33,686 bases of DNA from Gammaproteobacteria bacterium (GCA_012103395.1 WLWV01000009.1:1-33686); one strand, 5' to 3'. Shown: positions 2,941 to 28,500, counted from the stretch's first letter. Translations and numbers: made by a program. Notes: generated by a model not told the origin, from the letters alone.

Positions 2941-3167
2941 TTCTTTCAATGGGACAGCAGTGAGTTCGGGTATTTAGATACAATTAGTTCTATAGAGTAA
3001 TTTTTCGTACCGTTGGACTTCAACCCCCTGTACAGATCCATTTATCGCCTAGAAATAATATAAAGCACTGCTAGTGTGCAATGCTTTTTCTGGGTATGTG
3101 TTAACTGGCTCAAATGCAGCGTCTTAAAATCGGCTGCAACGGACGACTAAATAAAGAGTGCTTAAAA

Positions 3168-12100: not shown

Positions 12101-15100
12101 GTATCCATTCGTGTCGTTTCAATTGTTGGACATTGTTAAAGACATAGGCAACCAATCGGCCCAACCCAGTAGTTTTGATCTGATTTTGGCAACCAATGTG
12201 CTTCACGCAACCCCGAACATCAAAACAACATTGAGTAATGTGGCGTTGTTGCTCAAACCTGATGGTTGGGTTGTACTGAATGAGATGACCAATACCCAAG
12301 ATATGTTAACGTTGACGTTTGGGTTGCTGGATGGTTGGTGGTTATACGAAGATGAAGAATATCGAATACAAGATAGTCCGCTACTAACTCCCACTACTTG
12401 GGGGCAGTTGTTTCTTGAAGCGGGCTTGCCATACTGTAAGGTTTTGGGGCCAGCAGCACAGACGAATCTGAATTTGTCCCAGAGTGTCATCGTTGCTGAG
12501 AAGTCTTCGGAGCCAAAATCTGAATCAAATATCACTCAACCATCGCAGCGAATTCAGAGTGAATCCATAGGGTATGAGATTCATAACGTAGTCGCATCCA
12601 GTGTCGCTCCTGTATCTGCGCCGCCAGTGAGTGTGGCGAATAGTGAGGTATTGGAGCAGCAGTTGTTAGACAGTGTGCTAGCAAGTGTGGAAACAGCATC
12701 AGGAATTGCGGCGCAAGAGATTGATGAGGATAAACCCTTTTCGGAATACGGCATCGATTCGATCACAGGTATTGAGCTAATTAATGCGTTGAATCAGACC
12801 TTGGATATTTCGCTAAGTAAGACAGCGCTATTTGATTACACCACGGTATCCGCCTTATCTGATTACATTCTGGAGCAATATGGTGACGAGCTTGATATCG
12901 CAGCCCCCGAAGGCCTAGCTCCGTCTAAAGCGACTTTAGAGAGCACCGCGTCAGCAGCAATCAATAACGTCCCTGTATCTGCGTCGCCAGTGAGTGTGGT
13001 GAATAGTGAGGCATTAGAGCAGCAGTTGTTAGACAGTGTGCTAGCAAGTGTGGAAACAGCATCAGGAATTGCGGCGCAAGAGATTGATGAGGATAAACCC
13101 TTTTCGGAATACGGCATCGACTCGATCACTGGTATTGAGCTAATTAATGCATTGAATCAGACCTTGGATATTTCGCTAAGTAAGACAGCGTTATTTGATT
13201 ACACCACGGTATCCGCCTTATCTGATTACATTCTGGAGCAATATGGTGACGAGCTTGATATTGCAGCCCCCGAAGGCCTAGCTCCGTCTAAAGCGACTTT
13301 AGAGAGCACAGCATCAATCCTACCCCAGACATCGCTTGGTGTGGTTTCTTCTAGTCTGCCGCCGTCAAGCAGAATAGGTGGACACTGTCTGCATTATGGG
13401 ACGAACCCGTTGGGAAACTGGCAGAAAAATGAGTCGGTTACGCTCGACTACCCAATTACGGTAGAGAGTAACAACTGCATTCGTGACCATGTTATTTATG
13501 GCCAATATATTATGCCATCAGATGCATATCTGGAAATGCTATACATTGGTGCCCATCGCTTATTGGGCTACGACTCTGGTCTGGAGGTGGAGAGCTTCAA
13601 TCTACAATTCCCAATGATTACCTTCCCTGGTATTGCATTAGATTGCCAGTTGAAGCTGACACCGGGTAAAGGCAATAAAGCTAGCCGGTTTGCGATTCAA
13701 AGCAGAAAAGCAGGGGATGTCGGTGCTTATCAAGTCAGTGTTGATGGGCGATTTAGAGCTATCGATGGTACGACTCCAGTTAACAATGATTTTCGTCAGT
13801 TCTGGCAACCCTGTGAAAAAGTGGTGCAGCCGTACGAAATTTATACGCCGGATGCGATTTTAAAGGTAGGACCTTCGTATGAAACGATTCAGGCAATTCA
13901 TATTCAGGGCCAAACGGCGGTTAGCCAGTTAAAGCGTACTCCCACAGGCGAACCCTTGAGACAACAGTTTGTGTTGGAGCCTTCAATTGTGGACGGTCTA
14001 TTTGCAACAGGGCTTTACTTCGCCAGTTATCTTTCTGGTAACCCGAAAGATTTCTTTATTCCTGTGCTATTTGATCGTATCAGGGTGTTTCGTGAGTTGC
14101 ACGATGATGTTTATTATGGCGTTGTTAAGACCATCTCTGTCAAAGCAGAGCACATAACATTTGATTTGGCATTGGTCGATGAGCAGGGTAATGAGGTCCT
14201 GTCATTTGAAGGCTTTCACCTGCAAAAAATCTTGGCCGAAGATCTTAAGAAAAACGCCCAAGCACCCACAGACCAACCTATACAGACCTCCGCTGCTCGA
14301 ACAAACAAGAGTCCAACCAAAACAGGAACACCAGCACTGTCTGCGCAAGCAGTACAACCTAATAGTGCTGTAAACAGTACTGACTCAGGAATGGCTGTCG
14401 CTATTATAGGAATGGCGGGACGTTTTCCAGAAGCTAACAGTGTTGATGCGTTTTGGGAAAATCTAGCATCAGGGCGAAACTCTGTCACAGAAGTACCGGC
14501 AGATCGATGGAGTATCGATGAGCACTATGACGTTGATGAGTCCAAGCGTGATAAAACATACTCTAAGTGGGGAGGTTTTCTAAGTGATGTTGATTGCTTC
14601 GATTCATTATTTTTCCAGATTTCTGGAAAAGAAAGTGAGCTAACGGATCCTCAGCAACGGGTATTTCTAGAGGATTGCTGGCATACCCTTGAGGATGCGG
14701 GGTATTCAGACGTTGCCTTGTCAGGCCTTAAGCTAGGAGTTTTTGCCGGAGCGACTAAGGGCGATTATCAGCTCAAAATGCATCATGAAGACGGTGCGGC
14801 AATTGAAGGATTCTCGTTTCCCGGTAACGAACCTTCCGTGATGGCAGCACGCATCTCTTACTTTCTTAACTTAAAGGGACCGAGTATAGCCATTAACACG
14901 GCTTGCTCTTCTTCTTTGGTCGCCATGAATTTGGCCTGTCAGAGTTTGTTGACAGGGGAGAGTGATATGGCACTAGCCGGTGGTATACATATTTGTACTA
15001 CGCCGCGGTTTTATAAGCTGACAAGTAAATCTGGAATGCTTTCACCGACGGGCGAATGTCGTGCATTTGATAATGATGCTAATGGCTTTGTACCAGGGGA

Positions 15101-18100
15101 AGCCTCTGCGGCTATTTTGTTGAAACCGTTGGATAAGGCGCTGAAGGATGGTGACCATGTCTACGGTGTTGTGCGCGGTATTGGGGTTAATCAGGACGGA
15201 AAGACTAATGGTATGACCGCACCGAGTTCGGTTTCTCAGGCTGAATTAGAGGTATCAGTTTATGAGCGTTATGGGATTAACCCAGCTAGTATTAATTACA
15301 TAGAAACCCATGGCACTGGCACCAAACTTGGTGATCCGATTGAAATTGAAGCGCTGTCAAATGCATTTCGTAAATTCACCTCTGCTAAGCAGTTTTGCCC
15401 GATTGGTTCGGTAAAAAGCAATATTGGCCATACGGCATATGCTGCGGGTGTTTCTGGCGTGATAAAAGTTTTGCAATCAATGAAGCACCGCAAGATAGCA
15501 CCTTCATTACACTGCCATACTCCTAATGAATACATCAATTTCGCCGACAGCCCATTCTATGTGAATACGCAATTAGCTGACTGGGAAGTGCCGGAAGGCC
15601 ATGTACGCCGGGCGACGGTTAGCTCATTTGGCATCAGTGGCACCAATTGTCACCTAGTGATTGACGAACCACCTGGGGCAGCGACACCGGAAGTGATTGT
15701 GACTCGACCGGTTTACTTAATCCCAATCTCGGCAAAAACGAAACAGGCTTTCAAACAAAAATGCATTGATCTATTGCAGTGGTTTGATGGGGAAGGTCGT
15801 GGGGCTAGTGTCGCAAATATTGCTTACACCCTACAGGCTGGGCGCAGCCACTTTGCTTATCGTAAAGCATTCCTGTTGAATTCTGCCGAGGAGCTTCCAA
15901 CCTGCTTGCAAACAATGGCAGAGCTTGAAGTGCAGAGTAAAACCCCCAGTCGTGAAGTTAAAAAAGAAGGTAAGCAATTACTTAAGCAGGTGCAGTTAGA
16001 CGGTAATCAGCTCAGTGAACAGGATTATCGCGCACGCCTACAACAGTTCGTAACCTTGTATGAGCAGGGTTTTACACCGGACTGGGAGGCATTAAATCCA
16101 GAAACCGATCAGTTGCAACGCCTTTCCATGCCCGGATATCCCTTTGAGCGCGAGCGGTTTTGGATTCCCGACACAGCACTTCAAACAGAAACACGTGGGA
16201 CTGAATTATCCACAATGGAAACCACAGGATCATTCCGGCATCCATTGCTCGATAACCTCCAACTCGATCTCAGCTTAGCTCAAGGCCTGTGTTACGAAAA
16301 GCAGTTTAAGCCCGATGACTGGCTTCTGCAACATCATGAGATTGATGGCAAAGCAACGTTACCGGGTGTGGCCTATTTGGAAATGGCGCGTGCTGCGTTA
16401 GCGAATGTCACCGATCAAACTTATCAGCTATCACGTGTGGTTTGGGCCAGCCCTTTGGTCGTTGATCAACCGAAAACTATCAATATTATGCTGCTGAAGG
16501 AACAGCAACAGTATCGATTCGTTATCAGAGATGCTGAGGGTGAAAACTATTGCAACGGTGAGTTTGTCCCTAGTGATCCACAGGCTCCGCCAGCGTTAGA
16601 AGATAAAATGACGGCTTTGCAAAGTGCATTGCTACCCCAAGTAACCGGCGCGCAGTTGTATTTGCAGCTTCAAAACTTGGGTGTTAATCATGGTGCCGGC
16701 TTGCAATGTATGCAGCAGATTTGGTTTGGCCAAAATAGTGCGTTAGCCAAACTTACTATTTCACCGGAATGGAAACAAAAGTCTCAACCGTATGCCTTGT
16801 CACCCGTACTACTGGACGGTTGTTTACAGTTGGGTGCCGCGTTTATCCTGCAGCGCAATGCTAGTCAGGGCATCACCAGCACTGCTTTCATGCCATATTC
16901 GCTTGAAGCCTTAGAGTACTTTTCGTCGATACCTGAAGAGTGCTACGTTCTATTGGAAGAACGGGATGAAATGAGATTTAATTTGACACTCATGAACAGA
17001 GAGGGGCAGGTTTGTCTTCGTTTCTGTGATGTGTTTTATCGTTACCAGAAACAGACAGAAACCTTGGATGACTTCTTCTATCTACCCCGTTGGCAAACCA
17101 AGGCGATGAGCATTCAATCTCCACCTTCTCAGACTGCTAGATCGGTGCTTTTTGTGTCCAACGATCAGCCCATTTCGATAAGTTTAACCCAGAGTTTGAG
17201 GTCAGCGCATCAATCTGATTCTCTGGCAGAAGTACGGCTGGGCACACAGACTCAAGCATTGGGAGAACAGTACTGGCAGATCGATTGTTCATCTCCATCG
17301 GCCATTGAAGATTGTTTGCAGACCGGTGAGTATTCTTGCCCAGATCGTATCTATTTTATGGGCAGTGTTCAGGAAGCGGTGCAGACTCCTTTATCAGCAG
17401 AGCAGCTAGAGCGAAGCCAACAGCAAAGTGTTCTGTCGTTGTTTAGATTGATAAAAGCACTTATCAAACTCCAGTGGATATATAACGGTATTGAATTATG
17501 CATTCTAACAGAGGGCGCGCAAGCGGTTGACGCTCAGGAAACCATTAACCCTCTAGGGTCGGGAGTCTTTGGCCTAGCCAGAACTGCGATCAAAGAATAT
17601 CCCCAGCTAAAGATTAATTGTGTGGATTTCCACAGGGCAGATGCCATGCCACAATTAGTCAATCAAATTCAATCGGAACCTTTTGAACACAAAGGACAGG
17701 AAGTCGCATTCCGACAAGGTGTACGCAGTGTCTTGACACTTGAATCAATAAGTATTCCGCCTGCACCACAGACTATTTTCCGCCATCAGGGTGTTTACAT
17801 GATTTTAGGGGGAGCAGGAGGCCTTGGTTTTACCTTTAGCTGCTACCTCGCTGAAAAAGTACAGGCTCGCCTGATCTGGATAGGTCGCAGCCCACTTAAT
17901 CCTACACTGCAGGAAAAAATTAAAACTGTCGAAGCCAAGGGCGGGCAGGTAATTTATGAACAGGCAGATGTTAATGACATGACCGCCATACGCCAAGCGG
18001 TTATTCGAGGCAAGCAACACTTCGGTTGTATTCATGGTGTGATCCATTCAGCCCTAGGATTGCATGATAAATCGCTAGCCAATATGGAGGAATCTGTCTT

Positions 18101-21100
18101 CCTTAAAGCCTTGGCCCCAAAGGTTCAGGGTAGTGTCAATCTGCAGCAAGCTGTTTCTCAAGAAGCGCTTGATTTTCTGCTGTTCTTTTCTTCCGGTGAA
18201 TCGTTTACCTGTTATGCGGGGCAAAGTAATTATGCGGCGGCTTGTACTTTTAAAGATGCGTTTGCCCGCTACCTTGAGCGTGAGCTTCCCTATCCGGTAA
18301 AAATTCTTAACTGGGGTTATTGGGGAACTGTGGGTGTGGTCTCAAGCGAAGATTATCGTCAACAACTGGCGGCTCGGGGCGTTTACTCTATCGATCCAGC
18401 CGAGGGTATGGAAGCGATTGAGCGAGTCATGGCGAGTTCGTTTAGCCAGGTCGTACCGATGAAAGTCAGTCGGGCACACCTAGAGGAACTAGGCGTGGAA
18501 TTGTATGGTGAGGCATCGCCCGAGCGTGGGTCAGAGTTAACAGGCCATTTGGAGCTAATAGAGAGTCCACCTCATTCGCCCGTGGCCTCAACAACGCCGC
18601 TGAGTGTACCAATTGATGCAGGGATCGCTATCGAGCAAAAAGTGCAAGACTTTATTAAAACTGTCTTTGCTGAAACATTAAAGATTAACGAAGACAGTAT
18701 TGATCCCGAAGCGACGTTTGATGTGTATGGCATGGATTCGCTGATTATTACCAGCGTACTCCGGGCTTTCGAAAGCCACTTGGGGAAGTTACCTGTCGTG
18801 ACTTTGTATCAACATAATACCACTAGTAGCTTGGCTGAGTACCTGATTTCGGAGCATCGCGAAGCACTAGAAACCTTGCCAAGTATTGCTGCCATGCAAG
18901 AAGAAGCATCTGCCGTTACACCACTATCTTCTTCAACACCAATTGCTGAGCAATCGTCGTTTTCTGCTAGTCAGTCGGATAGTTTACAGACACCAGTAGC
19001 AGCATCGGGGGCTGATTTCGTTACGGCTCCACTAACGCATCGTCAACCAGAGACCCTTTTTGGTCGCGAGTCGTTAAGTTCAATGGCGCCTCCTGCTGAT
19101 TCTGACATTGCAATTATAGGCATTGATGGACGTTATCCGATGTCTGTGAATACGACGGAGTTCTGGCAAAACCTTAAAGCTGGTGAAAATTGTATCAGTG
19201 AAATACCCGGTGATCGTTGGGATTGGACTCGTTATCACTCATCTAACAAACATCAAGTTGGACGTATTTATAGTAAGTATGGTGGGTTTATCGATGATGT
19301 TGACAAATTTGATGCTTTGTTTTTTTCCATCCCACCGAATGAAGCCCGACTCATGGATCCTCAAGAACGTCTATTTATTGAAAGTGCTTGGACGGTATTG
19401 GAGGATGCGGGTTATACGCGGGAGGCACTGTCCAATAATGCTCAGCAAGTGGGTGTCTTTGTGGGTGTGATGCATGCGGATTATGAAGCCTTGGCAGGGG
19501 AGTTATGGTCGCCGGATAACCCAGAGGCAGGACACTCTTCTTCTTGGTCATTGGCTAATCGACTTTCCTATTTGCTGGATCTTGATGGTCCGAGCCTCGC
19601 AGTTAATACGGCTTGTTCCAGTTCGTTAACCGCGATTCATCTTGCTTACGAAAGCTTTTTGCGGGGTGAATGCGACGTGGCGATCGCTGGTGGTGTGAAT
19701 CTAATTCTTCATCCAAAACATTATCTACGCCTGTCGGCTGCCACCATGATTACACCAGGTAATCAATGTAAAAGTTTTGGTGCAGATGCGGATGGTTTTG
19801 TTGACGGTGAAGGTGTTGGAACCGTTCTATTGAAACCACTAGCATCGGCGGTACGTGATGGCGACCATATCTATGGCGTGATTAAGGCATCCGCAATGAA
19901 TTCCGGCGGAAAAACGAGCGGCTATACCGTCCCGAATCCGAATGCCCAAGCCAAAGTGATCACTAAAGCATTACGGCAAGGGAACATTGATCCGGCAACG
20001 ATTAACTACGTTGAAGCCCATGGTACCGGGACGTCCTTAGGAGATCCCATTGAAGTTACCGCGTTGACGCAGGCCTACCAAGAGCTAGGCGTTCATCAGC
20101 GCCAGTACTGTGCATTGGGTTCCGTTAAATCAAACGTTGGTCATCTGGAATCTGCTGCTGGGATGGCTGGATTAACCAAAGTGCTGTTACAAATGAAGCA
20201 TAAGATGTTGGTACCATCATTACATGCTAGTCGTTTGAATCCCCATATTGCGTTTACAGAATCGCCTTTCTATGTCCAGCAGGGCCTGTCTGAGTGGCAT
20301 CCAGTATCGCTCAATGGTCGTACCTATCCAAGGCGAGCTGGTTTGAGTTCGTTTGGTGCCGGTGGCACTAACCATCATTTGATTATTGAAGAGTATCAGG
20401 ATCCTGAAGCTGCTCGCGCTACGACTCAGTCATCAAACCCTTTTGAGACTGTCGGACAGATCTTTCCCTTATCGGCAAAGGAGCCTGAACAGCTCCGAGC
20501 ATACGCCAGACGACAGGTACGTTTCTTGAGTGAGCAGACACTGAACATGCGCGATGTGGCCTATACTTTGCAGCAAGGCCGTGAGGCCATGCCAGAACGC
20601 TTAGCCATTGTTTTCTCCAATCAAGATGACCTGTTAATGAAACTTGAGCAATGGTTACAAGCGTCTCAGCATTCCATTGCTATTGATAGTGTATTTTATG
20701 GACGCGCGCAAAGTGATGCTGCGACCATGTCTGCTAGCAAACAGGGGGTTTCAGGGGTTGAGCAGCAAAGAGCCATGGCTCAAGCATGGGTGTCAGGTAG
20801 TAAAATCGATTGGTCACAACTCCCGGTAGGTGAAGTGCCGTTACGTCGCTTGGCTTTACCGACCTATCCCTTCGAGAAACAAAGCCATTGGTTGAAAGGC
20901 AGGCCAGCAACAGCGGTGATTGCATCGCCTGATTCGAATGCAGCGCCTAAGCATACTGTCATCTCATCAGGCACAAACGCTAAGTCAGTTGCGGTTATTG
21001 GTGGTGGCCCTGCAGGGCTGGCTGCTGCTAAGTGCTTGCTGGATGATGGACATTTGCCGGTTTTGTTTGAGAAAACAGATCGAGTGGGCGGTATATGGTG

Positions 21101-22586
21101 TTTTCGTGATGATCATCAGGGGGGGCCATATCAGTCGACGCGGTTGCAAACCTCCAAGCTGACGTCACTGTTTTCTGATTTCCCACCGCCGGAATCAATG
21201 CCGGTATTTCCTGGAGTGACGGCTCTAAATCAATATCTTAACGACTATGCAGACCACTTTGGTTTAAGGCCACACATCAAGCTTGAGACTGTGTTGGAAA
21301 GTTTGACAAAAGAAGGGGAGAAATGGTTGCTGGTTTTGCGCAAAAGTGATGGCAGCAGACAAACCCAACTGTTTGATGCGGTCAGTATTTGTACGGGTGG
21401 TTTTTGGCAGCCCAAAACCCTGTCCTGTCCAGGGATGGAGTCGTTTCAGGGGGAGTATTTACACTCCAGTAATTATCACTCTCCAGAGATGTTCCGTGGT
21501 AAACGGGTGCTGGTCGTCGGTAATGGTGTTAGTGGTATGGATGTTGCCGTGGATGCCACTAAAGAAGCGGATCAGGTCATGATTAGCATGCGTTCAAAGA
21601 AAATGATCATTCCTCGTATGTTTGGTTTCACCACAAACGATGGCTCAATAACGTCTGTTAAGAGATCAATTATTGATAAACAAAAAGTTCCCGATATCTT
21701 ACAAGAATGGCGGGCTTCCATTCCCCAGTATATGGAAGCTATGGAAAAAGGCGACCTGCTACCGAGTTTTCCGGTTAAGGAGAGTGTGTTATTGGTGAGT
21801 TGTGATTTTCCTCAGGCTGTTAGCGATGGCAAGATTCAGTTAAAACCAGAGCTACGTAATCTATCAGGTAATCAGTGTGAGTTTACAGATGGTAGCCTCG
21901 CGCACATCGACATCATTGTCGACTGCACTGGCTATAACGAGATGAGCTTGCCATTTTTACCTAACTCAATTCAGTGCGATGAGTTGTACAAACATCAGTT
22001 TCACCCAGACCATCCTACACTGTGTTTTATAGGACGCAAACATGCTTCTTTGAGCGTAATTCCAACCCTTGAGCTAGAAGCTCGTTGGTTTTCGAAAGTT
22101 TTATCTGGTACCTGTTCCCTACCTGACGGGGCCACAATGCGAAAATCGATTCACAGCGATTATGTCAAGGAGAATCGGCGTGGAGGGTTGTTTCCCTCTA
22201 TTGATTCTTCGCAACAAAACATGTGGCTGGCGGAGCAAGTAGGTGCTTTTCCTAACCCTGTGACAAATTGGAAACTCTATTGGAAGTTGATCAATCTGCC
22301 AGCTATTCCCGCAACTTATCGTTTGGTTGGTTCAAATAGTTGGTCCGGTGCCGAAGCGTTCCTCGAAATGATCAAACAAAAACTGTATATCAACCAAAAT
22401 GATCCTCGGATAGAAGCAGTGAAGCATCAGCTACTAGCCCGATTAGGTGAGCGGAACTTGGAGACGATGGTGCATCTGAATCAAATTTCAAAGCATGAAC
22501 AGAATCAGGCTCTTGCCTTGATGAGTTCTGGAAAAAAGCAGGCGGGAGCCACCTCTAAAACAGTGATGAAGGGAGCGATGGTATGA
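3168..22586 (+). CDS. Giant trans-AT-type modular polyketide synthase (gene 1): KS-AT*-DH*-ACP-KS-DH-KR-MT-ACP-ACP-DH-KS-DH-KR-ACP-KS-FMO
   Basis: Track ORF 3114-22586 (6490 aa). In-frame ATG at 3168 preceded by AAAGAG (3153-3158, 9 nt spacing) is a better start than 3114. Four KS domains with Cys/His/His motifs, ACPs with GxDS motifs, and no GHSxG acyltransferase anywhere. Confidence 0.95.
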   Translation: MFRKHKADEDEVAIVGISCRFPGAKSYEGFWLNLEKGKNDVREIPESRWSSEFYSTDFHEPNRSISKWCGLLDDIERFDSAFFGISARESKSMDPQQRLLLQETVRCIEDSGIPLADLKKKKTGVYVGVMTLDYLIESNKSDVVTDSYSCLGNYESILANRLSHFFDFKGPSFSIDAACASSLVALHQAKLSLLSGESDYAIAGGVSLNLNPWKYISFSKSRMLSPDGQCKTFDQDANGYVPGEGVGVVLLQRLEDALKQNSHIYGVVKGSAVQHVGKSLSITSPDIKSQQALIEQVLQESNLNPEKVSYIEAHGTGTSLGDPIEVAALTHAFNKHTSKKNYCYLGSVKSNVGHLEAAAGVAGIIKVLMMMKYRKIAPTLNVKRPNPLLFLDDSAFKLALEAGEWQPEPGEQSLRAGISSFGFGGTMSHVILESSKPHYAQLNTKSTSHPFLLSAKTESALNALIVKWRSVIQKDDFKNLSLRDCCGTLATGREHYLYRWGCQVTSMANLQQQLQNAQPVLTAVKPTGALLIGDTTWGSFGQVKPFFRHASLVREQWVALRDDLNASIWFQSEPFDLNAKWNEENRDTYTFLSNYVYLASLLKSGFSPGLIAGQGSGIWLSLSLSGMLPVTEVLAILAGKLSPEDVHLSIPKIPFYDAVMCQTVRPFHLDGTYVSELVNNVDIGGQDWGKCLNESASLQNSQHTFKSYLNEWFLIVKNRGVDAETLFDHSLLSSKEKILSIVVIQSSLLKLYQKWSLSPVDPVEDKFLSELILLIAHFDLDKGAIVDLIIGNEFDSSVIDEYFSGETSGDFTEEKMLLKGKNQLPESLIKFSEWLDKAKRVEESGLIDSDMTVIEWGDYKQTNAHSKEAKLSPPTSLPETFLTLWKHGFDLKWKECFPDKMFSKLPLPVYEFGGERHWLNHKNKESQPVISTVVNKLIHDADKPHHYFRVLSPLGDSVIGDTVVEGQCITPSPLRLALALQAGKAESGMEVNSLKNVYFPNPGIIKDEVRMSIDIGDQCQFQLTKSELSGNVDTEEVLAKGLFEQADLSRPDDFNPDLYPVEKTESEAELYELFDQWGYQYGPGMCLIDRIDQTSDHFIIHIKAKPTDEAGSAGLDPFILDCMFQGVFYMGHIQGDLLKNRFLYVPISIKQLTLLTELASDCYAVINIADFHITDDGDIRLSFTAYDQQGSAVLLVDTIYFRRVKRDFLSISPKIPDAIPAMPDNDRYDTAERLTRTTQYLQKAVAESLGEPMDAIDIGAPLQEIGVDSLVNQEIVEKLAKVFPDLSSTVLFEYTTVKQLTGYFIKTYADRLGEILDLPLLTIDEPPLQGVGSTSAPSGEVSVEAARSATPMASSLDSKAIEEQLTDTVNKAANIDAEASEPVAIIGCSGRFPQAADLTEFWRNLKQGKNSITEVPEQRWDYEDYYDSSKRKGKSYTKWGGFLDGYDEFDPLFFNITPNQAQMMDPQQRVFLQTAWSSIEDAGYTRANLPRNTGVFVGVTTNTYALWAAQQSSVDSPQCPDTDLYDVANRVSYFCDFQGPSMSVDTACSSSLSCVHLAVQSLQRKECEMAVAGGVSLTLHPNRVVQFCQKNMLSSENYCHPFGEGKGGFVDSEGAGAIILKPLSAAIADGDSIYGVIRGTAINSGGRTGGYTVPSPKAQAKLVSKAIERAGVSARSISYLETHGTGTTLGDPIEVEGLTQAFRQHTDNTQFCAVGSVKSNIGHLISAAGISGLIKVLLQLKHRTLVPSLNASPTNSKIPFSKTPFYVQQHLSEWKSEYPRRAGVSSFGVGGSNAHVIVEEYAVDEPALFENEPCLIVISAKNKERLQSYVQKFLDFLPENLATLSLRNIAYTLQLGRESMEERLAFVVNNVQELLDALRKVQAGHDLGQDICFQTDSHSGNKKQTLSFEGEAGEAYIKVLLEQKQLVQLAALWVQGAEIDWQSLYKESNAAGNELRPRRISLPQYPFLKQRYWLPEEQKLTADVAEYNISSSTIHPLLDKVDIQQSFRQKSGLTFCKTLRPSDWILQDHQVNEQALLPGVACLEMARAAAEHIQNRSFNVKNMVWQAALSVEQSPVEVQLILSEQGVEGAISFEISSCLGVNSSGKKCAYGLLIPSPENNAQPEVISLNEIQARCADTMLPQTLYADFNDSGIRYGDTFQCINHVQKNDREALAFLKLPAALNASFNDYHNHPALMDAALQTALLLREDTKRMAMPFMVEEVLHYQAISAEVTVYVKKIGDLRFDVFLLTPAGAVCVQFKNVVFQPASPDPLDDFFYTPAWVAKDTPPTSMTSTAVTPQTVLAFLPPPEISHAAQRVVNELQQRNPSVRIVSLRESDFNAQAFPDTQAIYFLPGLVDHQPGAGDVQKLAMAQDFTSHALHRIVKALARSGQAESPLTFTVLTSPIYPVEASSVLFPSVAGLAGLTKTLIREYPHWRVNRVALNPMEILEGHVDVTEVLAEPRHTGAEEVAWHGGQRYIREMKPVQFKPSAQAPLRERGVYLIAGGLGGVGQQLSEYLAKNFRARLVLLGRKPLDSARSAQVKQIEEHGGEVLYLPTDLNSARETQRAIEQCLSRFGEIHGVFNSAIVLQDKALENMSEEDFRIAYDTKVLGSINLTQALDGQNLDFLIFFSSILSIVGNPGQGNYVAGGTFQDALSHYLNQRQSYPVQVVNWGYWGTVGIVATEDYQRRMNQQGMSSIAPEEGMEAILRILNHREAQVVAIKANSQLQEKMYVQTASPAPIYISENSTSMPTLLTTLGDKLDSAVALQSELFRFQEGYQALQQFAHQQLLASFVEMQILALSDAEALPSRFERFYTAAKRMLARSSLNLSHPSPWSKQEAISQQAFLAEKYPEIRAHLELLTHCLAHYTELFQETVLPTEVMFPGSSMAKVEGIYKNNPVSDYFNTLASHSVLNFIQEKAKTIPTGKKIRILEIGAGTGGTSAKVLETIQPYGEQLEYVYTDVSNFFLVHGKKQFAQSYPFVSFQLLDIVKDIGNQSAQPSSFDLILATNVLHATPNIKTTLSNVALLLKPDGWVVLNEMTNTQDMLTLTFGLLDGWWLYEDEEYRIQDSPLLTPTTWGQLFLEAGLPYCKVLGPAAQTNLNLSQSVIVAEKSSEPKSESNITQPSQRIQSESIGYEIHNVVASSVAPVSAPPVSVANSEVLEQQLLDSVLASVETASGIAAQEIDEDKPFSEYGIDSITGIELINALNQTLDISLSKTALFDYTTVSALSDYILEQYGDELDIAAPEGLAPSKATLESTASAAINNVPVSASPVSVVNSEALEQQLLDSVLASVETASGIAAQEIDEDKPFSEYGIDSITGIELINALNQTLDISLSKTALFDYTTVSALSDYILEQYGDELDIAAPEGLAPSKATLESTASILPQTSLGVVSSSLPPSSRIGGHCLHYGTNPLGNWQKNESVTLDYPITVESNNCIRDHVIYGQYIMPSDAYLEMLYIGAHRLLGYDSGLEVESFNLQFPMITFPGIALDCQLKLTPGKGNKASRFAIQSRKAGDVGAYQVSVDGRFRAIDGTTPVNNDFRQFWQPCEKVVQPYEIYTPDAILKVGPSYETIQAIHIQGQTAVSQLKRTPTGEPLRQQFVLEPSIVDGLFATGLYFASYLSGNPKDFFIPVLFDRIRVFRELHDDVYYGVVKTISVKAEHITFDLALVDEQGNEVLSFEGFHLQKILAEDLKKNAQAPTDQPIQTSAARTNKSPTKTGTPALSAQAVQPNSAVNSTDSGMAVAIIGMAGRFPEANSVDAFWENLASGRNSVTEVPADRWSIDEHYDVDESKRDKTYSKWGGFLSDVDCFDSLFFQISGKESELTDPQQRVFLEDCWHTLEDAGYSDVALSGLKLGVFAGATKGDYQLKMHHEDGAAIEGFSFPGNEPSVMAARISYFLNLKGPSIAINTACSSSLVAMNLACQSLLTGESDMALAGGIHICTTPRFYKLTSKSGMLSPTGECRAFDNDANGFVPGEASAAILLKPLDKALKDGDHVYGVVRGIGVNQDGKTNGMTAPSSVSQAELEVSVYERYGINPASINYIETHGTGTKLGDPIEIEALSNAFRKFTSAKQFCPIGSVKSNIGHTAYAAGVSGVIKVLQSMKHRKIAPSLHCHTPNEYINFADSPFYVNTQLADWEVPEGHVRRATVSSFGISGTNCHLVIDEPPGAATPEVIVTRPVYLIPISAKTKQAFKQKCIDLLQWFDGEGRGASVANIAYTLQAGRSHFAYRKAFLLNSAEELPTCLQTMAELEVQSKTPSREVKKEGKQLLKQVQLDGNQLSEQDYRARLQQFVTLYEQGFTPDWEALNPETDQLQRLSMPGYPFERERFWIPDTALQTETRGTELSTMETTGSFRHPLLDNLQLDLSLAQGLCYEKQFKPDDWLLQHHEIDGKATLPGVAYLEMARAALANVTDQTYQLSRVVWASPLVVDQPKTINIMLLKEQQQYRFVIRDAEGENYCNGEFVPSDPQAPPALEDKMTALQSALLPQVTGAQLYLQLQNLGVNHGAGLQCMQQIWFGQNSALAKLTISPEWKQKSQPYALSPVLLDGCLQLGAAFILQRNASQGITSTAFMPYSLEALEYFSSIPEECYVLLEERDEMRFNLTLMNREGQVCLRFCDVFYRYQKQTETLDDFFYLPRWQTKAMSIQSPPSQTARSVLFVSNDQPISISLTQSLRSAHQSDSLAEVRLGTQTQALGEQYWQIDCSSPSAIEDCLQTGEYSCPDRIYFMGSVQEAVQTPLSAEQLERSQQQSVLSLFRLIKALIKLQWIYNGIELCILTEGAQAVDAQETINPLGSGVFGLARTAIKEYPQLKINCVDFHRADAMPQLVNQIQSEPFEHKGQEVAFRQGVRSVLTLESISIPPAPQTIFRHQGVYMILGGAGGLGFTFSCYLAEKVQARLIWIGRSPLNPTLQEKIKTVEAKGGQVIYEQADVNDMTAIRQAVIRGKQHFGCIHGVIHSALGLHDKSLANMEESVFLKALAPKVQGSVNLQQAVSQEALDFLLFFSSGESFTCYAGQSNYAAACTFKDAFARYLERELPYPVKILNWGYWGTVGVVSSEDYRQQLAARGVYSIDPAEGMEAIERVMASSFSQVVPMKVSRAHLEELGVELYGEASPERGSELTGHLELIESPPHSPVASTTPLSVPIDAGIAIEQKVQDFIKTVFAETLKINEDSIDPEATFDVYGMDSLIITSVLRAFESHLGKLPVVTLYQHNTTSSLAEYLISEHREALETLPSIAAMQEEASAVTPLSSSTPIAEQSSFSASQSDSLQTPVAASGADFVTAPLTHRQPETLFGRESLSSMAPPADSDIAIIGIDGRYPMSVNTTEFWQNLKAGENCISEIPGDRWDWTRYHSSNKHQVGRIYSKYGGFIDDVDKFDALFFSIPPNEARLMDPQERLFIESAWTVLEDAGYTREALSNNAQQVGVFVGVMHADYEALAGELWSPDNPEAGHSSSWSLANRLSYLLDLDGPSLAVNTACSSSLTAIHLAYESFLRGECDVAIAGGVNLILHPKHYLRLSAATMITPGNQCKSFGADADGFVDGEGVGTVLLKPLASAVRDGDHIYGVIKASAMNSGGKTSGYTVPNPNAQAKVITKALRQGNIDPATINYVEAHGTGTSLGDPIEVTALTQAYQELGVHQRQYCALGSVKSNVGHLESAAGMAGLTKVLLQMKHKMLVPSLHASRLNPHIAFTESPFYVQQGLSEWHPVSLNGRTYPRRAGLSSFGAGGTNHHLIIEEYQDPEAARATTQSSNPFETVGQIFPLSAKEPEQLRAYARRQVRFLSEQTLNMRDVAYTLQQGREAMPERLAIVFSNQDDLLMKLEQWLQASQHSIAIDSVFYGRAQSDAATMSASKQGVSGVEQQRAMAQAWVSGSKIDWSQLPVGEVPLRRLALPTYPFEKQSHWLKGRPATAVIASPDSNAAPKHTVISSGTNAKSVAVIGGGPAGLAAAKCLLDDGHLPVLFEKTDRVGGIWCFRDDHQGGPYQSTRLQTSKLTSLFSDFPPPESMPVFPGVTALNQYLNDYADHFGLRPHIKLETVLESLTKEGEKWLLVLRKSDGSRQTQLFDAVSICTGGFWQPKTLSCPGMESFQGEYLHSSNYHSPEMFRGKRVLVVGNGVSGMDVAVDATKEADQVMISMRSKKMIIPRMFGFTTNDGSITSVKRSIIDKQKVPDILQEWRASIPQYMEAMEKGDLLPSFPVKESVLLVSCDFPQAVSDGKIQLKPELRNLSGNQCEFTDGSLAHIDIIVDCTGYNEMSLPFLPNSIQCDELYKHQFHPDHPTLCFIGRKHASLSVIPTLELEARWFSKVLSGTCSLPDGATMRKSIHSDYVKENRRGGLFPSIDSSQQNMWLAEQVGAFPNPVTNWKLYWKLINLPAIPATYRLVGSNSWSGAEAFLEMIKQKLYINQNDPRIEAVKHQLLARLGERNLETMVHLNQISKHEQNQALALMSSGKKQAGATSKTVMKGAMV
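3198..4470 (+). other. KS1 domain
   Basis: SIDAACASSL, EAHGTGTSLGDPIEV and SVKSNVGHLEAAAG: catalytic Cys and both His present. Confidence 0.93.
4920..5250 (+). other. Degenerate acyltransferase-like region
   Basis: 'SLLKSGFSPGLIAGQGSGIWLSLSLSGMLPVTEVLAILAG' aligns by eye with the AT nucleophile elbow GHSxGE..A..AG..S...A, with GHSxGE replaced by GQGSGI. Catalytic Ser context lost; the following ~700 bp has no recognisable domain. Confidence 0.5.
5998..6790 (+). other. Inactive DH-like (double hotdog) domain
   Basis: HxxxGxxxxP motif present as TVVEGQCITP (His->Thr, codon ACC 6051-6053). C-terminal hotdog 'YGPGMCLID...LDPFILDCMFQ' retained. Confidence 0.7.
6870..7085 (+). other. ACP1
   Basis: LQEIGVDSLVNQEIVEKL; Ser at 6972-6974 is the predicted phosphopantetheine site. 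Confidence 0.9.
7308..8570 (+). other. KS2 domain
   Basis: VDTACSSSL, ETHGTGTTLGDPIEV, SVKSNIGHLISAAG. Confidence 0.95.
9147..9990 (+). other. DH domain (module 2)
   Basis: DHQVNEQALLPG (His kept, motif Gly->Glu) and HPALMDAALQ (Asp kept). Confidence 0.85.
9991..11330 (+). other. KR domain (module 2)
   Basis: YLIAGGLGGVG nucleotide-binding motif; FFSSILSIVGNPGQGNYVAGG (Ser/Tyr catalytic residues); IVLQDKAL (Asp of the LDD position). Confidence 0.92.
11460..12500 (+). other. SAM-dependent methyltransferase domain MT1 (probably C-MT)
   Basis: VMFPGSSMAKVEGIYKNNPVSDYFN ... RILEIGAGTGGTSAKVLE ... NVLHATPN ... LTFGLLDGWW, typical of PKS MT domains. Confidence 0.9.
12609..12953 (+). repeat. 345-bp direct repeat, copy 1 (encodes ACP2a plus flanking linker)
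   Basis: By-eye alignment with 12972-13316 shows about 11 mismatches, no indels, 363-bp period. Confidence 0.92.
12649..12900 (+). other. ACP2a (tandem ACP, first copy)
   Basis: FSEYGIDSITGIELINALNQTLDISLSKTALFDYTTVSALSDYILEQYGDEL. Confidence 0.93.
12972..13316 (+). repeat. 345-bp direct repeat, copy 2 (encodes ACP2b plus flanking linker)
   Basis: See copy 1. Confidence 0.92.
13012..13263 (+). other. ACP2b (tandem ACP, second copy; protein core identical to ACP2a)
   Basis: Same amino-acid sequence as ACP2a from LEQQLLDSV through ATLESTAS. Confidence 0.93.
13378..14235 (+). other. DH-family domain after the ACP doublet and before KS3 (DH, isomerase, or pyran-synthase-like)
   Basis: RDHVIYGQYIMPSDAYLEM gives an intact HxxxGxxxxP; KVGPSYETIQAI; EPSIVDGLF retains the Asp. 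Position is ACP-ACP-[DH]-KS. Confidence 0.7.
14391..15673 (+). other. KS3 domain
   Basis: INTACSSSL, ETHGTGTKLGDPIEI, SVKSNIGHTAYAAG. Confidence 0.95.
16237..17055 (+). other. DH domain (module 3)
   Basis: HHEIDGKATLPGVAYLEMA (intact HxxxGxxxxP) and SPVLLDGCLQ (Asp). Confidence 0.9.
17060..18480 (+). other. KR domain (module 3)
   Basis: YMILGGAGGLG; FFSSGESFTCYAGQSNYAAACTFKDAFA; LGLHDKSL (Asp of the LDD position). Confidence 0.93.
18630..18860 (+). other. ACP3
   Basis: FDVYGMDSLIITSVLRAFESHL. Confidence 0.88.
19101..20397 (+). other. KS4 domain (module 4)
   Basis: VNTACSSSL, EAHGTGTSLGDPIEV, SVKSNVGHLESAAG: full catalytic set. Confidence 0.95.
20982..22390 (+). other. Embedded class B flavin-dependent monooxygenase (FMO / Baeyer-Villiger-type) domain
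   Basis: VAVIGGGPAGLAAAKCLLDDG (FAD Rossmann, ~20988-21050); FQGEYLHSSNY = FxGxxxHxxxY fingerprint (21444-21476); VLVVGNGVSGMDVA (NADPH Rossmann, ~21508-21549); IVDCTGYN motif. Confidence 0.93.
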
Positions 22587-25500
22587 GCAACACAGAACAA
22601 GTATTGACTCACTTAGAACAAGCTTTGATAGCGGCTGTTAGCAAAGTACTCGGAATCGATCAGCATCGTGTGCATGCCAATGAGAGCCTAAGCCACTATG
22701 GCTTTGATTCCATCACACTAACCCAATTGGCTAATCAGCTAAATGAACGGTTTGATTTCATCCGTCTGGATGCTTCGACCTTTTTAGAGCACACCTCGAT
22801 AGCAGCACTGCATAAGCACTTATGTAACCGCTATGCTGACGAGTTAGCGGGTTTGTTTGAAGTGGCAGCAGAAGCGCCCACAGACGTAACCGTGCCGGCA
22901 AAAATAATACTGGATGAGACACCTAAGGTGCAAAGCACCGCGAGTAGTTTTGACGGAGAAGCGGTATCTGGATCTTCACTCCTAGATGATTTCGAGTTTT
23001 CTGAACTTACAGAGCATTCGGAGTCGCCGCCGATACAGACACATGATGTTGCTATGACATCAAAACAAAGCGAACCGGTTGAGGGAGCTGATGATATCGC
23101 CATTATTGGGGTTGCAGGCCAATTCCCGGGCGCTGACAACATCATTGAGCTATGGGAAAATCTTTACCGCGAGAAAAATGCACTCACTAAGATTCCTAAC
23201 GACCGTTGGGACTGGGAGGCTATCTACGGAGACCCTGAGTCTGAAGACAATTTAACAGACTGCTGTTATGGCGGGTTTATTAAGGACTTGGAACGTTTCG
23301 ATCCTCTGTTTTTCGGGATATCTCCCCTAGAAGCATCCCAAATGGATCCCCAACAAAAGCTAGTTTTACAGTCAACTTGGGAAACCTTAGAAAATGCTGG
23401 ATATTCGATTGATCAGCTTCGCGGTGAAGATGTTGGGGTATTTCTCGGTGTTCAGCGTAATGAGAATCTGTTTAATTTGATGAAAGCAGGTGAGGATTTC
23501 GGCCCCTATACCAATATTGGCAACACTCACTCAATGCTGGCAAATAGGGTGTCGTATTTTTTCGATTGGAAAGGGAATAGCTTATCCGTTGATACCGCTT
23601 GTTCAGCATCTTCTAGCGCCTTACATTTAGCTTATCACGCTCTACGTCGCGGTGAAATTCGATATGCGTTAGTCGGTGGAGTCACTGTTGTACAAGACTC
23701 TTTTTCACATATTGCTAACCGTAAGATGGGCTTGTTGACGAATAAGCCTCGGGTGCGTTCTTTTGATAAGGACTCGGACGGTTATCTGATTGGTGAAGGC
23801 GTGGCCACCGTGATGTTAAAACCGGCCAATCAGGCTGAGAAAGATGGTGATTACATCTATGGCGTTATCAAAAGCTGTTCAGTTAACCAAGGGGGAAAGA
23901 CGCTATTTTTAACCGCTCCTGATCCGGCTGCCCATGTGAAAGTTATTCGCTCAGCGTTGAAGGATGCAGGGCTCAAACCAGACGATATTGATTATATCGA
24001 GGGGCAGGGCACTGGTACGACCTTGTCAGATAAGGCGGAGCTTAAAGCCTATGCTGAAGTATTCGCCTCTAACAGTGAAAAGAACCTGAAATTGGGGGTT
24101 GGTAGTATCAAAGGAAATATCGGTCATGTGGAATCAGCTTCTGGTATTACGGCATTAATCAAAGTTTGTCTGTCGATGAAAAATGGACTTATCCCACCGG
24201 TGCTTAATTTTAGCGAACTAAATTGGGATCAAGCAGCAGAAGCTCCTCCTTTCGAAGTGGTCGGTCAGCAACGTTTATGGCTTCGTAAAATGGGCGAAGA
24301 ACATATCCACATCCCACGGCGTGCAGGTGTACACAATTTTGGCTACGGTGGTTTGAGTGCTCACTTTGTTGTTGAAGAACACGATAATACTTGTGAAGCC
24401 TCAATGGCAGGTAACGTGGCTAACACTCTGTCAAATGACGAATTACTACTTTTCTCTTCAAAAAGTCAGAAACAGTTAGATGACTACTTGGCGAAACTAT
24501 TGCGCTATCTGGTGAATGATGAATATCAATATTTTGGCATTCAACAACTTCGTTTAGCTGATGTCGCTCACACGTTGCAAGTGGGCCGTGAAGACATGCC
24601 TTGTCGCGTGGCCATGATTGTGGCCTCTGTAGAAGAACTCGTTGCCTGTTTAAAGCAATATCTTGCTGGAGTTACATCGGTTACTGGGCTGTTGAGAGGT
24701 TCCGTTGATACTAATACGGATCATCGCTTTAGCCGTGAACAAATCTCTCCAATGCTCTACCAAAATCAGTCATGGCGCGATATTGCAGAGCGCTGGATAA
24801 AGGGCGCTTCACGTTCACAGTGGCTTACGCAGATTTGGTCTGGTGAATTGCCATCAAGAGGGAGTCGAATTCCGTTACCTGGATACTGTTTTGATTTTAT
24901 GACTTCTAGTGTTGAAAGGGAGGTTAAGTCTTTCCCGCTAGCAGAACCACAAGCCAATCCTGTTGCTTGGTTACAATACTCAACCGCTTTTCAACGTCTG
25001 GAAGTATTGGCCCGCGAAGGGCTATTTAGCGGTTTCCAGTCTTGGGGAGCGTGCCAAACGCTAGATGAAATACTTGACCCCAAGCAGCTAGAAAATGCAT
25101 TGGGCATTGCACAACAGCATCGACGTTTGTTCAAAGTCTTGCTGAATATCCTGGTCAGGGCCAATGTCTTAGAAGCAGTTGGTAATAACTATCGTGTAGT
25201 ACGGGTGGTCAGCGCCAGTACAGAACAATTGGAAGAACAAGTTCATCAACTGATACGCGATTTTCCTGAGTTGGAAACACAGGTGAGTTTGACATGGGAT
25301 TGTTTGCAGAATCTGCGTGCGGTGTTGCGAGATGAAATGCCTGCTACACAGATCTTATTCCCGGACGCTTCTATGCAACGAGTTGAGGGCTTCTATAAAG
25401 GGAATCCGATTATCGATTATTTTAATAAGCAGGTCAGTTGGCATGTATTGACAGCTGTTCATGAGATGAGCCAGAAGCTGCCCGCCAATGCCAGGGAGAA

Positions 25501-28500
25501 GATTCGTATTCTAGAGATTGGAGCCGGAACCGGTGGTATTACCGCCGGTATTCTGAGGTCGATCAGAGGTTCTGCTGAACACTTGCATTATGTTTATAGC
25601 GACATTTCGCCTGGGTTTACGCAATTTGGACAGCGTACCTTTGAGGCTGATTTTCCATTTCTGGCATTTCAGGTATTAGATATCGAAAAAGATCTGTCGG
25701 AACAAGGCTTCTCTGAACATAGTTTTGACCTGATTGTCGCCAGTAATGTGCTGCATGCGACTGTCAATATGCAGCGTACTTTGGGAAATACACAGCGATT
25801 GTTGAAACCGACAGGCCGTTTGATTCTTAATGAAGTGACCGATGCATCAGATCATATTTCGCTGACCTTCGGTTTGCTAAAAGGCTGGTGGGCGTTTGAG
25901 GATGATGCCCAACGTTTGCCTGGCGGTCCTTTATTGAATTCAGCAATGTGGACGGACCTGCTGCAGCAGCAAGGTTTTGCTACTGTGGATGTGTTTGGTA
26001 ACATTGGTCCAGATAGTAAGGATAGCGGTTACAATGTTGTGGTTGCTTCTCTAAAAGAGAGAACTGCTCCTGCACATGGAGATGTCGCAGCGCGATCATC
26101 TAACGATACTGTGGATGCTTCGGAAAAGATTTCTGTATTGACTCCCAATGCCCCAGCTCATTCCTATGCTTCCATATCTTCCACTCCGACTCTAAGCCAA
26201 GTATCAGAAGTATTTGCTCGTGTATTGATGATTGATGTTAACGAGATTCGCGTCAGTGAGCCATATGTCAATTATGGTGTAGATTCTTTTACGTCACTAA
26301 AAATTGTGAAAGCAATAAATGATGCATTGGGTGTGCAGCTACGCAGTACCGAGCTATTCAATTTTCCAGACATAACAGCCCTTAGTCATCATATTCAGCA
26401 ACTACCGAGTACTGCAGGTATTGCTCAAGAAACAGTAACAAAGCCGATGGACTCCAACGTGACACACAACACGCCCGCGGCAACTTCCATTGAGGTCAGC
26501 GCTACGCCTTCCACCACAGCTGCTACCAATAAAAATGCCAGAATTGCGGTAATCGGCATGTCGGGTCGGTTTCCTCAGGCTGCTGATACTGGCGAATTTT
26601 GGGAGAATCTAGCGGCAGGTAAAGATAGTATTCAAAAAACACCCGCCCATCGCTGGAATGGCGAACAATTTTGGGGTGGTTTTGTTGATGATATCGACAG
26701 TTTTGATCCACTATTTTTTAATATCTCTCCTAAGGAAGCGGAGTGGATGAATCCGCAACAGCGGCTTTTCATACAGGAGGCATGGCGAACATTTGAACAC
26801 GCGGGCTATTCTAGCGATGCAGTTAAAGGCAGTCGCTGTGGTGTATTTGCCGGCTGCCAAGAGAGTGATTATCTTCAAGCTTTTGATGAACTTGAGCTAA
26901 ATGGGTATCAGGGTATCGGGAATAGTGCGGCGATATTGTCCGCACGTATTGCTTATTTTCTTGATCTAAAAGGCCCCAGTTTATCGATTGATACAGCGTG
27001 TTCTTCTTCATTGGTGGCGGTGCATTTAGCCTGTGAGAGTATCCGTAGCGGTACCTGTGATATGGCTTTGGCGGGTGGTGTTTCGATCTTATGTACTGAC
27101 GAAAGTCATCGTGTTCTTAGTAAATCGGGGATGCTATCGCCTGAAGGGCGCTGTAAAACTTTCGATGACAGCGCTAACGGTTTTGTGCCAGCAGAAGCTG
27201 TTGGGGTTGTGCTACTTAAATCATTAGATCAGGCTCTGCTCGATGGTGATCATGTTCTTGGCGTAATCCAAGCGCACGGTATTAACCAAGACGGCAAAAC
27301 AAATGGGATTACTGCTTCCAGCTCACCATCACAATTTGCCTTGCAAACTGAAACTTACCAGCGTTTCGGCATAAACCCAGAACGAATCAGTTATGTCGAA
27401 GCGCATGGAACAGGTACAAGCTTGGGAGATCCGATTGAGGTTGACGCACTGGATGATACCTTCCGGGGACAGACTTCAAGCCAGCAGTTCTGCGCAATTG
27501 GCTCGGTAAAAACGAATATTGGGCATACTTTAGCAGCGGCGGGCGTCGTCGGACTCATTAAGGTACTGCTGTCTTTGCAACACAAACAGATACCGGCTTC
27601 TTTGCATTTTGAAAAAGAAAACCAGCATTTTCAATTGGAAAAAACTGCCTTTTATGTCAATACGGCTTTGCAGGTGTGGGAAAGCCCCATGGGCGTACCT
27701 CGTCAGGCTGCCATTAATTCGTTTGGCTTTAGCGGCACCAATGCACACTGTGTTGTCGAAGAAGCTCCCGCTTTTACTGGTACTACAAATGTCGCAAACA
27801 CGGCTCCTTATCTGATTCCCTTATCAGCAAAAACCGTTGTTGATCTAAGTGATAGTGTTCAGTTACTAGCTGAGTGGCTGGAACAAGGTGATGGTAGCTA
27901 CCAAATTAATGATGTTGCAGCCACTTTACTGTTGGGACGAACGCATTTCGATTACCGTATTGCATTGGTGGTTGAAGATTGGCAGGAATTGGTCACTGTA
28001 TTGAAAGAGGTAATGCAACAGCCTGAATCCTACCTATTTAAAGTTAAGCCTAAACAAGATCATAGCACTGCATTGCAATATTTTGGGCAACAATTGTTGC
28101 TAGGAATTAATGATAAGACGGGGCACCTACTACCGAGTTCAGGGTATCGTGAAACGTTGCTGAGCCTTGCTGATCTTTATCAGCAAGGCTATCCGCTGGA
28201 ATGGCAAAGAATTTATCAAAACGACCCCGGTTCAGCTGCAGTGTTTCGCAAAGTACCACTACCAACCTATCCATTTAACGGTCAACGTTATTGGTTGGCT
28301 CCGGTCACCTCTGCCGTCGATCACATGGTAGTTGTTGAAGATACACAGAAGCCATCTGTATTTAACTTTAGCCCTACCGGTTTTCCTGATCAATCTTCTG
28401 AGTTGCGAGCTTTTCAGGAAGCTTACGCCACACTGTCACCACTGTGCGCAGTTTTGTTGTCCAGTACTTTGCAAAGTATGGGGGCTTTCACCACAGTGGG

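Follow-up and report, generated by a model that had tools for sequence, protein, structure and literature searches.

A 33,686-nucleotide stretch of DNA from a gammaproteobacterium (GCA_012103395.1, WLWV01000009.1:1-33686; hereafter, the window) encodes a polyketide synthase (PKS) in which a flavin monooxygenase (FMO) is fused behind a ketosynthase (KS). The question raised by this locus is which atom of the growing chain the FMO oxygenates. An initial annotation of the sequence left the reaction class open between Baeyer-Villiger (BV) oxygen insertion and alpha-hydroxylation; it rightly did so, but the KS next door, which has the catalytic triad C-Q-H, was overlooked. We tentatively read KS4, the FMO, acyl carrier protein (ACP) 4, KS5, and a C-methyltransferase (C-MT) as an on-line oxygenation bimodule of the kind of LbmA-Ox, the oxime-forming FMO of the lobatamide PKS, acting on an all-carbon chain and hydroxylating its alpha-carbon. 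Carbon is probably the oxygen target, since no amine-loading module lies ahead of KS4. Carbon oxygenation is a reaction not yet shown for an LbmA-Ox-type FMO. The parts of the bimodule and its surroundings are as follows.

19101..20399, + strand: KS4, elongating ketosynthase with triad C-H-H (Pfam PF00109/PF02801; triad by alignment)
20856..20891, + strand: LPTYPFEKQSHW, LPTYPFx5W post-KS recombination/fusion motif, 24 residues ahead of the FMO hit (motif reading)
~20961..22517, + strand: class B flavin monooxygenase domain, FMO type, LbmA-Ox family (PF00743, E 1.3e-76; 8odw best match by sequence and fold)
22583..22586, + strand: ATGA overlap of the ORF1 stop and the ORF2 start (open reading frame (ORF) calls)
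22619..22819, + strand: ACP4, phosphopantetheine Ser in YGFDSIT at 22697-22717 (PF00550)
23096..24385, + strand: KS5, predicted non-elongating ketosynthase (KS0) with triad C-Q-H, Gln in EGQGTGT at 23999-24019 (triad alignment; post-FMO KS0 clade)
24926..26047, + strand: C-MT of the KS0 module (DisA 6cca, E 2.5e-74; CurJ 5thy, E 1e-53; PF08242)
26201..26404, + strand: ACP5 (domain scan)
26543..27769, + strand: KS6, the next elongating KS, C-H-H (triad alignment)

ORF1 runs uninterrupted from KS4 into the FMO; the two are separated by nothing but the KS linker, at whose end the LPTYPFx5W motif stands. This motif marks a module boundary and serves as a fusion site in engineering (PMC11260071). 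The KS4-FMO // ACP4 module is split between two genes, because the ORF1/ORF2 junction falls between the FMO and the ACP. Domain scans of both PKS ORFs detected neither a ketoreductase (KR) nor a dehydratase (DH) between KS4 and ACP4, and no acyltransferase (AT) domain in the modules of the window; the assembly line is therefore of the trans-AT type. The embedding of the FMO in a trans-AT PKS after a catalytic KS4, and the beta-keto chain that it would face, are thus as initially annotated.

The AF2 model of the FMO domain has a pLDDT of 86.8, indicating a confident fold. The motifs in the domain, taken from a motif table of 45 FMOs, are listed below; both Rossmann motifs and the FxGxxxHxxxY fingerprint described in the initial annotation are among them.

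21000-21017, + strand: FAD motif GGGPAG
21087-21098, + strand: GGIW motif
21138..21158, + strand: TRLQTSK, the R-x-Q signature common to PKS-embedded FMOs (also by alignment with 6sem)
21444..21476, + strand: fingerprint FQGEYLHSSNY (FxGxxxHxxxY)
21519-21536, + strand: NADPH motif GNGVSG
21924-21935, + strand: CTGY motif

The R-x-Q signature should be noted. R-[LF]-Q occurs in all PKS-embedded FMOs of the table and in no free one. Its third place is Gln in the embedded FMOs and commonly Asn in free FMOs, including in the alignment with the ancestral FMO 6sem. Asn at this place is the oxygen-activation residue of free FMOs; we take it to be Asn78 of the FMO mutant structures among the fold matches, and presume that the embedded Gln is its equivalent.

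The best solved match to the window FMO, both by sequence and by fold, is PDB 8odw, recorded as the LbmA Ox-ACP didomain of the lobatamide PKS crystallized with NADP and ethyl glycinate, a glycine ester. An FMO domain encoded in genome G800, which we take to be that of Gynuella sunshinyii, matches the 8odw sequence at 100% identity. The lobatamide cluster has two unlike oxygenases, LbmA-Ox for the oxime and LbmC-Ox for the BV reaction, and the second, BV monooxygenase (BVMO)-like oxygenase in the G800 cluster was taken as LbmC-Ox. The lobatamide-type kinship in the initial annotation therefore holds for LbmA-Ox (35.6% identity over 494 amino acids) but not for LbmC-Ox (28% local identity over 197 amino acids).

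In a tree of 45 embedded and free FMOs, all PKS-embedded FMOs, the window FMO included, fall in one clade of 22 rows that contains two free enzymes (support 100/99), so that the kinship with PKS oxygenases, for which the initial annotation had proposed a phylogeny, is upheld. LbmC-Ox falls outside this clade. Within it, an oxime branch holds LbmA-Ox, the necroxime enzyme, and others; its sister branch holds Ensifer, Xanthomonas, and G186 sequences; and the window branch holds three methanotrophs and a betaproteobacterial metagenome-assembled genome (MAG), joined weakly by Hahella/Photobacterium. In place of the type I fingerprint FxGxxxHxxxW(P/D) the window reads FQGEYLHSSNY, and LbmC-Ox itself reads FRGTLKHALDC. 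The Tyr in place of W(P/D), pointed out in the initial annotation, is present, but carries little weight alone, as Tyr is normal across the PKS-FMO clade. The window FMO is thus a member of the LbmA-Ox-type PKS-FMO clade. Identity as a type I BVMO was rejected, with the motif, the identity to LbmC-Ox, and the tree position all contrary.

The second element of the bimodule is KS5. The C-H-H triad is kept in KS1-4, KS6, and KS7 of the window, whereas KS5 has C-Q-H. Since its first catalytic His is replaced by Gln, KS5 is predicted to be non-elongating and should hand the chain onward without extension. Because KS5 carries this replacement and is followed by a C-MT, the FMO, ACP4, and KS5 should be read together as a bimodule. 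FMO-type domains are followed by 17 KSs in the clusters examined; each of these has the C-Q-H triad, and together they make up a single clade (SH-aLRT 99). The KSs after luciferase-type oxygenases form a C-Q-H clade of four (support 100), located near the post-FMO clade in the KS tree. Across the clusters mapped, every C-Q-H KS (21/21) follows an FMO-type or luciferase-type oxygenase, and none of the other 101 KSs is C-Q-H (Fisher p 5e-24, a value overstated by the relatedness of the KSs). Three LbmC-type BV modules were checked and lack the C-Q-H neighbor, their next KSs all being C-H-H.

The FMO-carrying KSs are scattered in several places among ordinary extender KSs, whereas the post-FMO KSs form one clade. 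This distribution indicates that the traveling unit is FMO-ACP-KS0. The unit starts shortly past LPTYPFx5W in several clusters, including the window. We used the KS tree for this co-travel instead of a Mantel test: the correlation of FMO and KS0 distances (r 0.958) was dropped as evidence, since that of the FMO and the upstream KS is equally high (r 0.951). Two further observations concern KS types and their order. C-N-H KSs (His to Asn) in L037, L027, L026, G800 (the fourth KS), and G579 (the sixth KS) form a clade of their own and either immediately precede a DH domain or stand last in a protein. In a 1.7 Mb gammaproteobacterial genome (G186:C12, L112-L114), a line ends in a single protein, luciferase-KS0-FMO-ACP-TE (TE, thioesterase), in which the two oxygenase types stand in succession.

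The domain order, the intact cofactor motifs, the loss of His in KS5, the homology to LbmA-Ox, and the conservation of the unit, as read from the sequence, are consistent with the following course, in which cofactor use, the sequence of steps, and oxygenation at the alpha-carbon are our inference. KS4 would condense malonyl with the chain to give a beta-ketoacyl thioester on ACP4. NADPH would reduce the FMO-bound FAD, which with O2 would form a C4a-(hydro)peroxyflavin, and the peroxyflavin oxygen would be passed to the nucleophilic alpha-carbon to give alpha-hydroxy-beta-ketoacyl-ACP. KS5 would then transfer the oxygenated chain unextended to ACP5, where the C-MT could methylate it before KS6 restarts extension.

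Alpha-hydroxylation is favored over BV insertion because related bimodules keep KRs and BV modules in the literature precede active KSs. KRs with catalytic residues present are found in KS-FMO|KR-ACP-KS0 (L030, L025) and in FMO-ACP-ACP-KS0-DH-KR (L024, L032), and these relatives are all without an amine-loading module. A beta-ketone would have to survive the oxygenation for these KRs to act; after a BV reaction it would be gone and the KRs useless. Alpha-hydroxylation bimodules in the literature have the layout oxygenase-ACP-KS0 (PMC10953402, PMC9600693), which the window shares. Several points nevertheless weigh against alpha-hydroxylation. The window bimodule has a C-MT and no KR, so that the argument from KRs applies to it by analogy. 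The known PKS alpha-hydroxylases MupA, OocM, and CalD are luciferase-like, with another fold (PMC10953402). The orthologous cluster of Ca. Methylobacter oryzae has a separate luciferase-type oxygenase later in the line, and the node uniting the window subclade with Hahella/Photobacterium is weak (81/57). A malonyl-ester BV product would be no less compatible with the C-MT after the FMO than an alpha-hydroxy product. Alpha-hydroxylation is thus placed only slightly ahead of BV insertion.

BV insertion, which we consider a serious though somewhat doubtful alternative, would begin with attack of the peroxyflavin on the beta-ketone of the chain on ACP4 and place oxygen between the gamma- and beta-carbons to give a malonyl half-ester; KS5 would pass it on, and the C-MT would convert it to a methylmalonyl ester, leaving an in-chain ester. 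The class B fold and the lack of KR and DH in the module are in keeping with this reaction. In trans-AT PKSs, BV oxygenation is described as turning beta-keto thioesters into malonyl esters (PMC8262917, PMC7930024), and the embedded monooxygenase of mandelalide is proposed to be of BV type (PMC5698493). The activated malonyl methylene would be chemically easy to C-methylate, and the luciferase-type oxygenase of the orthologous cluster is already available for alpha-hydroxylation. Contrarily, LbmC-Ox, the BV domain of lobatamide, is an enzyme of another kind that resembles type I BVMOs and has an elongating KS next, the sesbanimide KS after SbnP retains its His (PMC8262917), and OocK and LbmC_OX are stated not to occur in alpha-hydroxylation-like bimodules (PMC10953402).

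Another outcome, over-oxidation to an alpha,beta-diketone or an idle domain kept for structure, is unlikely. The replacement of the free-FMO Asn by Gln in all PKS-embedded members speaks for it, but the same Gln occurs in LbmA-Ox, which serves its pathway as the oxime oxygenase; moreover, the cofactor motifs are all intact, and conservation of the FMO across the orthologues is 69-72%. N-oxygenation, in which an amine of the chain would become an oxime as it does in lobatamide and necroxime, is the least probable and was rejected for want of an amine-loading module upstream: the closest characterized relative acts so on a glycyl chain, but three PKS modules precede KS4, adenylation (A), condensation (C), and peptidyl carrier protein (PCP) domains were found neither in these modules (16 kb upstream of KS4) nor in the orthologues mapped, and the C-MT is unlike the MT type after KS0 in a lobatamide-type cluster. 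A starter amine supplied in trans may be conceivable, yet it would be far from the oxidized position.

Orthologues of the FMO with 69-72% identity are found in Methylobacter sp. (L028), Ca. Methylobacter oryzae (L033), and Ca. Methylumidiphilus (L029). All three methanotroph genomes keep the KS4-FMO | ACP-KS0 order, so the arrangement in the window is neither chance nor an assembly artefact, and KS1-KS7 of the window pair one to one with methanotroph KSs in the KS tree. The methanotroph clusters differ from the window in being more complete and in GC content (0.52-0.58 versus 0.456). The M. oryzae cluster adds a PhyH, a luciferase-type oxygenase, a KS0-MT module whose MT type differs, and a TE. 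Its end (L069:2491-10290) consists of the luciferase-type oxygenase, C-Q-H KS0-MT-ACP-ACP, and KS-ACP-TE, a second oxygenation bimodule with another enzyme class within one line. The tetranucleotide correlation of the window is 0.87 with its own bin and 0.16-0.41 with the methanotrophs. Sampling of relatives of the window's genome turned up no such FMO, and the remaining cluster parts were not found in the window's own 3.36 Mb draft genome. Horizontal transfer of the cluster is the simplest reading; alternatively, the contig may be mis-binned. Methane/ammonia monooxygenase gave no match in the window's genome, and the control gave no match anywhere either. No relatives of the FMO were found in IMG/VR. 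More than 200 enterobacterial plasmids, mostly conjugative (matches H5-H50), carry a free FMO gene (~32% identical), often annotated beside a SemiSWEET transporter.

The window holds two large PKS genes on the + strand, 3114-22586 (6490 amino acids) and 22583-33685, the second of which extends past the contig end, and a BCCT transporter gene on the opposite strand. The domain order is KS1-DH-ACP, KS2-DH-KR-MT-ACP-ACP-DH, KS3-DH-KR-ACP, KS4-FMO in the first gene, and ACP4, KS5-MT-ACP, KS6-MT-ACP, KS7-KR in the second. The ACP pair of module 2 and its linkers are near-identical in translation (12600-13300), which suggests recent duplication or conversion. KS1 is separated from the first DH by several hundred residues (4700-5970) that are without a Pfam domain of their own and include an AT-like remnant, GQGSGIW. 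On a 23 kb contig (G000:C17; L021, L022), the same genome also encodes another, separate assembly line that starts with acyl-ligase-like, ACP, and KS domains.

These results distinguish the LbmA-like FMO units of trans-AT PKSs from the LbmC-like BVMOs as two oxygenase lineages, and provide a readable rule by which a module with a C-Q-H KS is recognized as following an FMO-type or luciferase-type oxygenase. The rule aids structure prediction for orphan polyketides, including that of the window; three methanotroph genomes share its cluster. Should carbon hydroxylation hold for the amine-free branch, the unit, taken from near LPTYPFx5W, would be a candidate exchange piece for introducing oxygen in engineered lines.

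Among known systems, LbmA-Ox of G. sunshinyii is like the window FMO in following a KS, in serving an ACP and then a C-Q-H KS0, and in its R-x-Q signature and Tyr fingerprint. Its chain is glycine-derived and the MT type downstream is another, whereas the window has three upstream PKS modules, no amine-loading module, and a C-MT. The window unit is thus homologous to the LbmA-Ox unit but probably not an oxime-forming module, because glycine-loading A/C/PCP domains are absent upstream. The necroxime module of Mycetohabitans (L038) shares the KS-FMO|ACP-KS0 split, but belongs to the oxime subclade and uses a glycine primer (PMC7318616).

The LbmC-Ox and OocK/SbnP modules also employ class B flavoenzymes on beta-keto thioesters in trans-AT PKSs. 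LbmC-Ox differs from the window FMO in being BVMO-like with elongating KSs next. BV modules are arranged as KS-DH*|monooxygenase|ACP-KS (PMC9600693), and in sesbanimide the module comprises KS-DH* and a free monooxygenase, with an active KS downstream, the only non-elongating KS of that pathway being other than the one after SbnP (PMC8262917). The window lacks a DH after KS4 and its next KS is a KS0, which sets it apart from the OocK/SbnP-type malonyl-BV layout as judged from published descriptions. Relatives of OocK/SbnP could not be named in samples of ~390 genomes for each of three groups, the Hahella order, the Vibrio order, and the Rhizobium class, nor in 271 genomes from the order of the betaproteobacterial MAG; since few candidates were scored per genome in these samples, the absence carries little weight.

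The MupA/OocM bimodule resembles that of the window in its oxygenase, ACP, and non-elongating KS0, with C-Q-H KSs that are neighbors in the KS tree. It differs in that a luciferase-like FMN enzyme of unrelated fold acts in trans, whereas the window has the FMO fold. The embedded class B FMO could, in a broader reading that we hold more loosely than that of the window itself, be an on-line alpha-carbon hydroxylase and the counterpart of MupA/OocM, with a portable FMO-ACP-KS0 unit giving N-oximes or C-hydroxyl groups depending on the chain it receives.

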